DNA from: Vulcanimicrobiota bacterium
Lineage (GTDB): Bacteria > Vulcanimicrobiota > Vulcanimicrobiia > Vulcanimicrobiales > Vulcanimicrobiaceae
Reading direction: 5' to 3'
Length of the DNA stretch: 10,545 bases
NCBI GenBank assembly: GCA_013289785.1
Contig: JABCZE010000029.1
Span: 1 to 10,545 of the forward strand
Shown: one piece after another, positions 7,241 through 10,545 of the stretch
Layout: each line of letters opens with the position of its first letter
Numbering within the stretch: the stretch's first letter is position 1
The notes under the pieces: generated by a model
Seen by the model: only the letters and a program-made list of their open reading frames with translations
Told to the model about the DNA's origin: nothing
Databases searched by the model: none
Position numbers and translations under genes: made by a program

Positions 7241-9373
7241 ATGATCGACGTTTACCAGTCCGCTCTGCGCTCGGGGCAACGGCCGCCGGTACGCGACGCC
7301 TTTGCCCTTTTCCAGGAATGGGGGGGCATCTTCAACCGGCGTAAAAGGCTATTTTTGATCGCGCTTGGATCGTTGCTGGGGCTTCTCATCCTCACCATTC
7401 TGGTAACCCCAAAAATGTATACAAGCGATGCCAGCGTTATCGTTGGAATGGGGCGGCAGGCAAGCAGCGGCGACGCTCCGACGAACCTGCCGATCCTCAA
7501 TGCGCTGATGATCGTCTCGGGAATTCAGTCGGGTGAAACCTACGCCGAACTGATGTCGGAGGGACCAGTCGCCAGTCAGGTGATCGCGCAGCTTGGCCTG
7601 AAGACTTCGGACAAGGCGCTACTCTCGCGCGTTCGGATCGAACCGGTCAACAACACCTCGATCATCCGGATCTCTGCGACATGGCCGAGCCGTGAAATGT
7701 CGGCGCGCATCGCGAACGCGTTCGCTACCGCTTTCATCCAGCACGAGCGCAATCTCGTGGCTTCGCAGGCGGAGACCGCGATGAACTTCCTTTCCGCGGA
7801 GATGCCCGAGGCCGCGGCTCGACAGCGTGCCGCGGATACGGCGTTGAGCGCCTTTCAAAAGAGCCATCAAGTGGCAGACATGAGCACGCAGGCCCAAGCG
7901 ACTGTCAACGCGCTCACGACACTGGACGTTAAGGCGGGTCAGCTCAACCTGGACCGCCGCCAGGCTGCCGCGGAGCTGCACAGTGACGTCGCTCAATCCG
8001 GCGCGATGAACCCAACGACGTCGGGCTCCGAGTCGCTGTCGCCAAACCCGGTCGTCCAGGAACTGCGCACGCAGCTTGCTCAGGTCGACACGCAGTTGGG
8101 CGCGGCCCGCAAACTCTACACGGAGCGGCACCCGGCCGTCATTGCGCTTTTGGATCAGAAGCAACAGATCGAAAAGCAGATCGCCCAAGAGCCGGCTACG
8201 GTGGTTTCCGGGACGAGCACGGTCGTCAATCCAGCCTACGAGCAGCTCACACAACAGGCCGCCGGATATCGTGCGGAGATCGCCTCGGACGAGGCCGGCC
8301 TTGGGGAAGTAGCGGCGCAGCGGAAGTCGCTCCTGGGAAAGATTAAACTGTTACCTGATGAGACGCTGCAACTGGCGGCACTAGAGCGAAATGCGCGACA
8401 GGCGGAGGCTGTCTATGGAGCGCTGCAGCAACGCATGAGCGATGCGATGATCGCAAAGAGCACAGCCATTAGCGACGTCACCATCACGCAGCCGGCCAAT
8501 CCGGACGACGCCATTTCGCATCCGAGCCGCTTGGCGATTCTGCTAATCGGTGCCCTCATCAGTCTGATCCTCGCTTCGACGCTCATTGTCATTCTCGATT
8601 ACTTAGATAGGCGCGCGAGATGTGAAGCGGAGATTCGTGCGGCCTTTGGGCGTTACGTGTTGGGAGTGCTTCCCGACCTCGACGCAAGCGACGAGCAATC
8701 GCTGCCCTGGCTGCGTGCGATCGCGCTCGAATCGCTTCTGAAGCTCGTGAGGTCGATCTGGTTTTCCAGACCGAGCGACCTGCGATCCATCGCGTTCACG
8801 AGTCCTCGCGCTGGCGACGGAAAGAGTACCTTGGCGATCAATGTGGCCTGGACGCTGGCTGAAATGCAGCAGCGCGTGCTGCTGATCGACGGCGACCTCC
8901 GGCGACCAACGCTGCACAAACTGCTGAACACAACCAACGATTCAGGCTTAACAGACGTTCTAAGCGGTGCGTCGACCTTGAGCGAGAGCGTCCGTAAGAC
9001 GGCCGTTCGAGGGCTGGATCTTCTAACGAGCGGGACGCCTCTCGCAGCTCCGGCTCTGCTGCTGCAATCGGGCGACCTCGACGCTCTGGTGCGTAATGCC
9101 GAGGCAGTTGGCTACCAAAGAATTATTGTCGATCTTCCCGCAATTATGCCCGTAGTCGATGCTGCGTCCATTGCGGAGAAGCTCGACGGCACGATCCTCG
9201 TGGTTTCGGCCGCGACGACGAGTGCCGAGCTCGCGCGCGAGGCCGTTTCGTATGTTGAAAGTCTTGGAATCACTAATCTCCTTGGGCTAGTTGTAAATCG
9301 CGTTCGTCGTGATGCGGGACCGGACGCGCAATACTACGTCCGAACGCAGGGGACCCCGCTGGCGCTGCCGTGA
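7241..9373 (+). CDS. Wzc-like polysaccharide co-polymerase with C-terminal BY-type tyrosine-kinase domain
   Basis: A 710-residue inner-membrane protein of the Wzz-plus-kinase type, controlling chain length and export together with the OPX partner. TM1 is at about residues 36-56 and TM2 at about 430-453. Between them lies a long periplasmic region with a Wzz-like start, an Ala/Gln-rich coiled coil, and the family's 'ERHPAVIALLDQKQQIEKQI' block and 'LERNARQAEAVY' element. The cytoplasmic domain has Walker A 'SPRAGDGKST' (521-530), Walker A' 'LLIDGDLRRP' (D550 and D552) and Walker B 'IIVDLPA' (D631), as in bacterial tyrosine kinases. The C-terminal Tyr cluster, normally several residues, is reduced to Y698-Y699 in 'DAQYYVRTQG'. 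ATG 7241 lies 4 nt after the OPX stop, with AGGA at 7227-7230. It is the last gene of the operon; no convincing intrinsic terminator follows. Confidence 0.93.
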   Translation: MIDVYQSALRSGQRPPVRDAFALFQEWGGIFNRRKRLFLIALGSLLGLLILTILVTPKMYTSDASVIVGMGRQASSGDAPTNLPILNALMIVSGIQSGETYAELMSEGPVASQVIAQLGLKTSDKALLSRVRIEPVNNTSIIRISATWPSREMSARIANAFATAFIQHERNLVASQAETAMNFLSAEMPEAAARQRAADTALSAFQKSHQVADMSTQAQATVNALTTLDVKAGQLNLDRRQAAAELHSDVAQSGAMNPTTSGSESLSPNPVVQELRTQLAQVDTQLGAARKLYTERHPAVIALLDQKQQIEKQIAQEPATVVSGTSTVVNPAYEQLTQQAAGYRAEIASDEAGLGEVAAQRKSLLGKIKLLPDETLQLAALERNARQAEAVYGALQQRMSDAMIAKSTAISDVTITQPANPDDAISHPSRLAILLIGALISLILASTLIVILDYLDRRARCEAEIRAAFGRYVLGVLPDLDASDEQSLPWLRAIALESLLKLVRSIWFSRPSDLRSIAFTSPRAGDGKSTLAINVAWTLAEMQQRVLLIDGDLRRPTLHKLLNTTNDSGLTDVLSGASTLSESVRKTAVRGLDLLTSGTPLAAPALLLQSGDLDALVRNAEAVGYQRIIVDLPAIMPVVDAASIAEKLDGTILVVSAATTSAELAREAVSYVESLGITNLLGLVVNRVRRDAGPDAQYYVRTQGTPLALP

Positions 9374-9402
9374 GCGGTAGTAACTGCCCTAAAAAGAAAT
9401 GG

Positions 9403-9414
9403 GCCCAATTGGGC
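9403..9414. promoter_or_regulatory. Perfect 12-bp palindrome, operator candidate
   Basis: GCCCAATTGGGC is fully self-complementary with no spacer, as expected of a site for a dimeric DNA-binding protein rather than an RNA hairpin. It lies just upstream of the promoter candidate for the first pilin gene. The regulator is unknown. Confidence 0.35.
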
Positions 9415-9425
9415 TAGTGAAGCTC

Positions 9426-9451
9426 TAGAAAGTGGCCGAATAGGCCGATAA
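9426..9451 (+). promoter_or_regulatory. Sigma-28 (FliA/SigD)-like promoter candidate for flp pilin
   Basis: GCCGATAA at 9444-9451 is identical to the sigma-28 -10 consensus. It is preceded at 14 nt by TAGA (9426-9429), one mismatch from the TAAA core of the -35. A transcript starting near 9458 would carry a 45-nt leader ending in a strong ribosome binding site. The -10 is part of a tandem repeat (GGCCGAATA, then GGCCGATAA). The same 7-mer core also occurs by chance inside a gene at 3213, so the match alone is not proof. Confidence 0.35.
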
Positions 9452-9491
9452 AGGTAGCAGGTGCTTCTTCTTACCTCGAATTCCTTTCAGC

Positions 9492-9498
9492 AAAGAGG
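9492..9498 (+). promoter_or_regulatory. Ribosome binding site of first Flp pilin
   Basis: AAAGAGG(AG) lies 4 nt before ATG 9503. It is the strongest Shine-Dalgarno sequence in the window, as expected for an abundant structural subunit, and it excludes the in-frame upstream start at 9461. Confidence 0.7.
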
Positions 9499-9502
9499 AG
9501 AT

Positions 9503-9676
9503 ATGCTCACGACTCTTGCCAGTATCGTTCGCCGTTCGGCCAAGGACGAAGAGGGTGCGACGATGGTCGAGTATGGCCTACTTGTAGCTCTGATCGCTAT
9601 GGTCGCCCTTGTGGGGATCTCGGCTCTCGGCATCAACCTCCAGACGCTCTTTAGTACGTCCGCCGGCTCCGTTTAA
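9503..9676 (+). CDS. Flp/Fap-type (type IVb) pilin
   Basis: A 57-residue prepilin of the Flp family, the major subunit of tight-adherence (Tad) pili. It has an 18-residue leader ending 'SAKDEEG'. The prepilin-peptidase site is G|ATMVEYGLL, with Glu at +5 and Tyr at +6 as the family requires. One hydrophobic helix follows, 'VALIAMVALVGISALGINLQ', and a short tail, 'TLFSTSAGSV'. Length and layout are exactly those of Flp pilins. Assembly would need a prepilin peptidase, the TadA ATPase and TadB/C membrane proteins, none of which is in this window. The start is fixed by the AAAGAGGAG ribosome binding site. Its position directly after a polysaccharide operon suggests a shared role in surface adhesion or biofilm. 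Confidence 0.93.
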   Translation: MLTTLASIVRRSAKDEEGATMVEYGLLVALIAMVALVGISALGINLQTLFSTSAGSV

Positions 9677-9693
9677 GAGGGCGGTTCCGATTG

Positions 9694-9720
9694 GGGCGAC
9701 TGCAAAGCAGGATCGCCCCA
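9694..9720 (+). repeat. Strong hairpin between the two pilin genes
   Basis: GGGGCGA pairs with TCGCCCC (7 bp), and inside it CTGC pairs with GCAG around an AAA loop, with a 2-nt bulge. It begins 17 nt after the first pilin's stop. No T-run follows, so it is more likely a partial terminator or an mRNA-stabilising end than a full intrinsic terminator. It could separate high expression of the first pilin from low expression of the second. Confidence 0.5.
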
Positions 9721-9808
9721 GCTCCCATGTGCTCGGCAGCGGCAAAAGTGATTGTGAAACGCCGCCGCTCCTGCCTGCGTTGGCGCATTGACGCGCGAAA
9801 GCAAGCTT

Positions 9809-10012
9809 ATGAGCAGGCGTACGACAAATTTCAACATTCTCGGATTTATTGGGGACGACGAGGCCGCGACGATGGTCGAATACGGCTTGATGGTCACGCT
9901 GGTCGCCATTATTTCCGTCAAGCTCCTGGGGACCAACCTGAGCACGCTTTTTTTACACTGCGGGCCGCAGCATCTACTCGCTCGCTCGGTGATGCGACAA
10001 ATATCTAACTGA
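9809..10012 (+). CDS. Second Flp-type pilin, diverged, C-terminus probably frame-shifted
   Basis: A 67-residue paralogue of the preceding pilin. It has a 19-residue leader ending 'FIGDDEA', then 'ATMVEYGLMVTL' with Glu +5 and Tyr +6, then the helix 'VAIISVKLLGTNLSTLF'. Two oddities stand out. The residue before the cleavage site is Ala instead of Gly. After 'STLF' the sequence turns into 'LHCGPQHLLARSVMRQISN', unlike any Flp tail and about ten residues too long. The change falls exactly at a run of seven T (9948-9954). With six T the tail would read 'LFYTAGRSIYSLAR' and stop at 9990-9992, closer to the first pilin's 'LFSTSAGSV'. ATG 9809 gives a normal leader length but has only a weak GAAAG upstream; TTG 9788 is an alternative. 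It may be a minor pilin or a decaying copy. Confidence 0.75.
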   Translation: MSRRTTNFNILGFIGDDEAATMVEYGLMVTLVAIISVKLLGTNLSTLFLHCGPQHLLARSVMRQISN

Positions 10013-10230
10013 CCCACTACCCGGCTAGAAGGGCGTAACATACTTGGCTAAGCAGCCAGGTTGAACGCTGGGGAGGGAACCAAACCCTCCCCCGGCTCCT
10101 GAACTTTGAACGGCGGCGACCTAAGGAGAACCGAAAGAAAGGTTGGCGCTGTATGGATTTAGGCGAAACGCCTGACCCCCGCTTAGACGAGGGGGCTAAA
10201 GCCCTGCCCTGAGACGGGAATACGCCGCCG
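10013..10230 (+). ncRNA. Candidate structured non-coding RNA, possibly HEARO / IscB omegaRNA-like
   Basis: No convincing gene lies here, but complementary segments are dense. Visible helices are: CCC/GGG (10020-10022/10031-10033); an 8-bp stem 10042-10049/10054-10061 with AAGC loop and one G-U pair; a perfect 8-bp GGGGAGGG/CCCTCCCC stem (10070-10077/10085-10092) with AACCAAA loop; AACC/GGTT (10129-10132/10141-10144); AGGCG-AAA-CGCCT (10161-10173); and CCCCC/GGGGG (10176-10180/10191-10195). CGGCGGCG at 10111-10118 is the exact complement of CGCCGCCG at 10223-10230, closing the last four into one multi-branched domain. A-rich loops and the G-U pair favour the + strand. TTGAACG occurs twice (10061 and 10106). 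Size and placement after a GTGA resemble HEARO RNAs, the guide RNAs of IscB nucleases, but no nuclease gene is present. The structured-RNA call is moderately sure; the family is a guess from memory. Confidence 0.5.
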
Positions 10231-10506
10231 CTAGTCTTCGAGAGGTGGAGGTGATTGAAGCGGCTCCTCAGCCTCTAAATCCGATAATCGTTTTCTTAAA
10301 GCTCGAAGTCGCTCGTTTATTCCTTGAGCTTGCTCGGCAGTCGTTTTCGGATGGAGAAGATCGGCCTGAAGGTCTTGAATCTTCTCGATTGTATTTTGGT
10401 AGCGAACCGACCACCATAACTCCTCATCGGAAGGTGGCGTCTGGTGCTGGCGACGGCGAAGCCGATCAAGGTCCTTTTGAATCTGCTCAGGGTCAAAACC
10501 GTCCAT
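10231..10506 (-). CDS. Small charged, probably coiled-coil protein of unknown function
   Basis: A 91-residue protein that I do not recognise. It begins 'MDGFDPEQIQKDLDRLRRRQ', has a central 'SDEELWWSVRYQNTIEKIQD', and continues through Arg/Glu/Leu-rich helices ('GINERLRALRKRLSDLEAEE') to a Pro-rich end. Heptad-like Leu spacing suggests two or three helices forming a coiled coil; there is no signal peptide or membrane segment. ATG at 10506 was chosen because GAGGG (complement of 10512-10516) lies 5 nt upstream; GTG at 10527 is an alternative. It faces the pilin and operon genes, and its stop codon touches the end of the structured-RNA candidate, so it belongs to another transcription unit or to an inserted element. 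The good ribosome binding site and protein-like composition argue that it is real. No function can be assigned. Confidence 0.6.
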   Translation of the reverse strand: MDGFDPEQIQKDLDRLRRRQHQTPPSDEELWWSVRYQNTIEKIQDLQADLLHPKTTAEQAQGINERLRALRKRLSDLEAEEPLQSPPPLED

Positions 10507-10511
10507 GTATT

Positions 10512-10516
10512 CCCTC
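10512..10516 (-). promoter_or_regulatory. Ribosome binding site of the small coiled-coil gene
   Basis: GAGGG on the - strand, 5 nt before ATG 10506. It is the main reason for preferring this strand and this start over the overlapping + strand frame. Confidence 0.55.
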
Positions 10517-10545
10517 AGGGGCGACACGGTGCTAGACTCAGGGCG

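Follow-up and report, generated by a model that had tools for sequence, protein, structure and literature searches.

The window analysed here (10,545 nt) makes up all of contig 29 in a Vulcanimicrobiota assembly of 2.0 Mb, which is in 361 contigs and is 66% complete. The contig encodes a GNAT-domain protein, three glycosyltransferases, an ABC-2 transporter pair and an SLBB-domain export protein, together with a long ORF at 7241-9373 that we take, by eye, to be Wzc. Downstream of the Wzc ORF, a Pfam search identified two Flp pilin-like ORFs. The first is at 9503-9676, and the second at 9788-10012 on the + strand, with a Flp_Fap score of 30.5 bits, just under the Pfam cut-off of 32.2. They are followed by the folded stretch described below, which lies directly 3′ of the end of the second pilin-like ORF and on the same strand, and then by an antisense orphan ORF.

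The Flp pilin family is multi-copy, with nine matches in this assembly, and has at least one match in 21 of the 41 genomes searched. The second pilin-like ORF contains a run of seven T at 9948-9954. Its C-terminus past this run is unlike that of the first pilin, and among the matches listed, its DNA matches to the pilins of relatives stop at or before 9951. The ORF possibly reflects a frameshift, a pseudogene or an assembly error. A consensus scan of 9370-10545 found neither a sigma-70-like promoter nor a terminator-like site, and a simple source of a transcript would thus be read-through from upstream. Two genomes of the same genus, with 94% and 76% protein identity over the Wzc query, have no DNA match beyond the end of the Wzc gene in the corresponding loci, of which about 1.5 kb was fetched.

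The folded stretch is separated from the contig end at 10545 by 309 nt, which hold the antisense orphan ORF and a + strand ORF of 96 residues, the latter judged by eye. The orphan ORF (10231-10545, - strand, 104 residues) ends at the 3′ edge of the RNA, is open at the contig end and has no Pfam family. It has no relative besides itself among about 5.8 billion proteins, and none in plasmids, phages or IMG/VR (11 pattern matches, 0 confirmed). PHROG scores were E 0.07 or worse, PADLOC gave no match, and the single weak match among 98 genomes has 31% identity and two stops inside. The GC content by codon position is 0.67/0.40/0.50, the third-position value being atypical, as the seven operon ORFs with a correct reading frame have 0.70-0.77. 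The codon score, -0.088 per codon, is about equal to that of the facing frame and does not mark this ORF as coding, so that it is a candidate gene. A coding explanation of the folded stretch itself was also rejected, all six frames of 10013-10230 having at least one stop and scoring below the two pilins.

The best + strand fold of 10005-10245 has a closing helix, P1, around five arms. P1 is formed of 6+6 bp, between a 5′ strand at 10023-10037 (GGCTAG at 10023-10028 and GGCGTA at 10032-10037) and a 3′ strand at 10221-10236 (TACGCC at 10221-10226 and CTAGTC at 10231-10236). The first arm is P2 (10042-10061), a hairpin of 8 bp (10042-10049/10054-10061) with the loop AAGC, followed by P3 (10067-10096), which is G/C-rich (10067-10077/10085-10096) and has the loop AACCAAA. 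A 13-nt single strand, TCCTGAACTTTGA (10097-10109), is unpaired in the best fold and leads into P4 (10110-10152), which has 6+6 bp, a 1x1 mismatch and an A-rich loop of 17 nt. By eye, TCCT of the single strand could form a possible pseudoknot with AGGA at 10124-10127 in the P4 loop. P5 (10159-10175) has a GGCG/CGCC core and the triloop AAA, and P6 (10178-10218) an apical GGGGC/GCCCT stem that carries the motif GGGCTAAAGCCC.

Most pairs in 10005-10245 are predicted with a probability close to 1. Across six contexts, from 241 to 1043 nt long, the average probabilities of P2 to P6 lie between 0.78 and 0.99: the mean for P2 is 0.96 in all six, and the ranges are 0.80-0.87 for P3, 0.81-0.99 for P4, 0.89-0.95 for P5 and 0.92-0.99 for P6 (0.78-0.81 for its apical part). 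They stay at 0.74-1.0 from 10 to 60 °C, and an alternative energy set gives the arms 0.56-0.86, with P2 at 0.86. A further alternative set yielded identical values, and the two are treated as a single one. The closing helix P1 has probabilities of 0.88-1.0 in 10005-10245, falling to 0.58-0.61 in the longest context and to 0.07-0.40 with the alternative energy set.

The original prediction had described this region as a compact group of hairpins that looks like a large structured RNA. Three of its hairpins are present, namely the 8-bp hairpin at 10042-10049/10054-10061, the G/C-rich one at 10067-10077/10085-10096 and the triloop hairpin at 10159-10165/10169-10175. The stem that it drew between CCCCC (10176-10180) and GGGGG (10191-10195) is not: both tracts exist, but the best fold pairs each of them elsewhere. 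It had also proposed a long-range helix of 8 bp enclosing several of the stems. The complementarity between 10111-10118 (CGGCGGCG) and 10223-10230 (CGCCGCCG) is indeed perfect, but the helix is absent from the best fold, and forcing it costs 4.8 kcal/mol. The best fold has local pairing of 10110-10122 with 10140-10152 in P4, and 10221-10226 pairs with 10032-10037, closing the whole. The region contains two complementary pairs of 8-mers, where the mean for mononucleotide shuffles is 0.36 and 8.3% of 2000 have as many as two.

Two further expectations, that the RNA is read left to right and that nothing else in the window is as densely structured, agree with the energies. On the + strand 10005-10245 folds with -99.7 kcal/mol and a z of -4.08, none of 200 dinucleotide shuffles being as good; on the - strand z is -1.59 and 14 of 200 shuffles are as good. 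The G-U pairs, 8 of the 67 in the + strand fold, fit this asymmetry. When the contig was scanned in 220-nt windows on both strands, with 30 shuffles each, 10001-10220 (+) had the lowest z (-4.23) of the 260 window/strand tests, the next being -3.49.

How often such values arise was assessed in related genomes. A random draw of 929 null windows (16 shuffles each) was taken from 2838 in 56 loci, some of them overlapping, of which 54 are from other genomes of the phylum and two from other contigs of the same genome. Ten of the 929 (about 1%) have z at or below -4, and six at or below -4.2. Ensemble diversity was compared in 2782 null windows, from the same loci and from the contig itself up to about 10200, so that the last of them overlap the folded stretch. 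It is as low as that of the query in 28 of these windows; low diversity combined with a junction of at least five arms occurs in two, and in none of 400 shuffles. Energy alone is ordinary, 966 of the 2782 being equally or more stable. With z ≤ -4 attained by about one in a hundred windows of related genomes, the fold is suggestive and not proof: it is unusual, yet not beyond chance when one takes into account that the best place was selected. Folds stronger than that of the query, with z from -5.7 to -7.0 (16 shuffles), were seen at L061 661-880 (+), L042 1-220 (+) and L036 881-1100 (-). The L042 window belongs to the same genome as the query, and the L036 window contains a long near-perfect hairpin.

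No known RNA family was recognised. At gathering thresholds the 4227 Rfam families gave no match in the whole window, and at E ≤ 10 there were three sub-threshold matches in 9700-10545, the best having 15.3 bits against a cut-off of 55. The original prediction had named HEARO, the omegaRNA of IscB, as the likely relative. The stretch shares with HEARO (RF02033) a length of about 210-220 nt, several helices and closure by long-range pairing, but differs in that the HEARO model, run with permissive filters, has no match at E ≤ 10 in 9700-10545, and in having no IscB adjoining it or elsewhere in the 66%-complete assembly, from which the IscB domain (PF14239) is absent. That assembly also has no HEARO match at E ≤ 0.001 (cut-off 83 bits). 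Among 198 genomes, PF14239 genes were found in five, the genome of the window not being one of them. The 14 control genomes for HEARO were likewise empty, and a separate control was therefore made from IscB-domain loci. Six of 12 such loci were matched, with 65.5-154.7 bits, four of them over the cut-off. One of the six is in a genome of the same family (81.7 bits) and five are in another phylum (four of 128.7-154.7 bits, and one of 65.5 bits). The other six, three of which have strong IscB domains, had no HEARO match at E ≤ 0.1. The model would thus have scored a typical HEARO RNA; a divergent omegaRNA might escape it, as half of the control loci did. Against a divergent omegaRNA there is also the downstream sequence, since no IscB-type ORF is listed in the 309 nt. 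The HEARO label, tempting as it is, was not borne out on testing and is rejected.

Relatives of the stretch were sought with blastn, with a covariance model and with exact patterns, none of which gave a convincing homologue. In 198 genomes, blastn found matches in two, the genome itself and G089, where the match is of 25 nt. This 25-nt match falls at the 3′ end of a seemingly nuclease-like ORF; in the same genome, L003 1204-3025 holds what by eye is a restriction-modification-like group of small regulator-like, nuclease-like and DNA methylase-like ORFs. When 10010-10545 was compared with 149 genomes of the phylum, matches were found in 18, including its own, each of those outside the window being of at most 40 nt. 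Five of these places fall wholly or partly in the RNA (G016, G041, G052, G075 and G089), and inspection of the surroundings covered those in G016, G041, G052 and G089. There was no blastn match in plasmids at E ≤ 1, and the three phage matches, at E 0.6, are all outside the RNA.

The covariance model was built from the single sequence as two identical rows. In 388 genomes, with stricter filters, it gave matches in five at E ≤ 0.5, including the genome itself. Those in G017 and G183 lie in coding-looking ORFs, and those in G258 and G166 are short P3-like hairpins. Two other phyla were searched as well: in one, a single genome of seven had a match, a P6-like piece in G390, and in the other a single genome of 358, where it is a REP-like repeat array. 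The top match outside the genome is L193, with 21.1 bits over the full length, and is an array of GGGCTTCAGCCC / GGGCTAAAGCCC elements; these REP-like units occupy L193 604-825, between two ORFs.

The covariance-model searches cover some 750 genomes, and the pattern scans a collection of 84,980 species as well as IMG/VR. The pattern TCCTGAACTTTGA-N10-16-AAGGA occurred in 103 stretches of the genome collection. All 103 sites were scored, the best exceeding shuffled flanks by 6.4 score units, and all were judged to be chance, without a formal cut-off, about 50 being expected by rough arithmetic. In IMG/VR, five scans were empty and one gave five matches, judged by eye to be chance; the single match from another pattern is inside a phage ORF. 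Searching by exact pattern has low sensitivity, and for the genome collection 18 named bases were taken to be invariant, so that the absence of relatives is limited by the choice of tools and patterns. In its own assembly the stretch is single-copy.

The regions after other Flp genes were also folded. After 38 such genes, 36 in other genomes and two in the same genome, the mean z is -1.08 against -0.28 in the 929 null windows (one-sided Mann-Whitney p 0.0003), although the comparison is a loose one, in which window lengths and shuffle numbers differ and the null comes partly from the same loci. The next pilin gene lies inside some of the regions; duplicates, and any region shorter than 150 nt, were left out. 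The query has the lowest z of the 39 post-Flp regions, narrowly (-3.88 against -3.76). Stem-loops 3′ of the Flp genes of related genomes thus resemble the query in position, in strand and in folding more strongly than background. They differ in shape: the strong folds, among those listed, are mostly long simple hairpins, whereas the query is a closed five-arm junction, for which the consensus scan found no terminator-like site. A covariance-model search of 28 Flp loci gave no convincing match, the best being a 35-nt piece with 10.7 bits and E 0.086.

The computation places a strand-biased, well-defined fold right after a pilin-like ORF and on its strand. On the basis of these observations, we tentatively hypothesise that the stretch is a structured 3′ untranslated region of a Flp pilin transcript. 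This is our best reading and the most economical one, at a locus absent from the relatives examined, although chance folding is almost as likely. We infer that transcription of the pilin gene would run on into 10013-10240, that the RNA would fold in the cell into its five-armed, end-closed shape, and that the fold would keep exonucleases off the 3′ end of a presumably abundant pilin mRNA, or set the level of that mRNA in some other way. The adjacency to the pilin, the bias to the + strand, the low ensemble diversity with five arms and the folding after other Flp genes all argue for a 3′ untranslated region. Against it are the closing helix P1, weaker in long context and mostly gone with the alternative energy set, the 1% of null windows at z ≤ -4, the lack of a convincing match in the 28 Flp loci, and an upstream pilin that may be damaged at its T run. 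A real fold would give a little-studied lineage a complex structured RNA, and would show that the 3′ end of a pilin transcript can be ornate.

The closest competitor is that there is no functional RNA here. On this reading a non-coding, GC-rich stretch, perhaps foreign DNA that has decayed at an accessory site, would owe its good fold to chance, and would have been singled out as the best-looking place in the window. The ten null windows at z ≤ -4 are consistent with this, as is the failure to find a homologue in 198 genomes by blastn (beyond 25 nt) or in 388 with the covariance model (beyond weak matches). So are the two same-genus genomes, which have no match past the Wzc gene, and a neighbouring ORF that is itself an orphan. 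Chance accounts less readily for the lowest z of 260 tests on the contig, for the shuffles (0 of 200 and 0 of 400 as good), for an ensemble definition with at least five arms that only two of 2782 null windows equal, and for the clear strand bias. As it stands the case is mainly cautionary: with no homologues behind it, a z of -4 is a value that about one in a hundred windows of related genomes attains.

If the RNA is one of its own kind, it would represent an undescribed class of end-closed, five-arm bacterial RNA, whose accessory locus also carries a Flp pilin and an orphan protein. Such a class would have to be very rare, since no recognisable second copy was found in some 750 genomes, the 84,980-species collection or IMG/VR, and we consider it unlikely.

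It is likewise improbable that the stretch is a free-standing or mobile-element RNA, such as a new omegaRNA-like guide, an IS110-type bridge RNA or a retron RNA, with its protein partner past the contig end. An RNA of about 215 nt with several arms and a closing helix, and with no counterpart found in relatives, would suit such an element, and so would its place beside an orphan ORF of atypical GC3 at the end of a contig; contig ends are often caused by repeats. The HEARO model, which missed half of the IscB-domain loci, leaves some room for a guide RNA. It is nevertheless negative here, the stretch is single-copy, and the remaining 309 nt of the contig show no reverse transcriptase, recombinase or nuclease ORF. 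Beyond shape and location, nothing positive supports a mobile-element RNA.

Least likely of all is a DNA-level palindrome of REP- or MITE-like type, for which 10023-10037 and 10221-10236 do form an imperfect inverted repeat as its closing arms, and the REP-like GGGCTAAAGCCC repeats of L193, from another phylum, do resemble the tip of P6; but the fold is far better on the + strand, the motif lies here within a larger single-copy fold and not in an array, no target-site duplication was seen by eye, and the 19-mer of the P6 tip, with one mismatch allowed, occurs in only two of 149 phylum genomes, including its own.

Further observations concern some of the IscB-domain loci used as controls. In a genome of the same family (G044), L015 1225-1449 is a HEARO-type RNA upstream of an IscB-domain gene, its 81.7 bits lying just below the cut-off of 83; judged by sequence, it is probably a divergent omegaRNA of this lineage. 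G195 has eight RRXRR loci. In this genome, at L022 1338-1552, the HEARO match of 65.5 bits runs into the start of the IscB-domain match, which is in a shortened frame (270 residues). Three other loci of G195 (L023, L024 and L025) have strong IscB domains, of 151.9-154.8 bits, and no HEARO match at E ≤ 0.1, and the Rfam model may not cover the type of guide RNA that they have.
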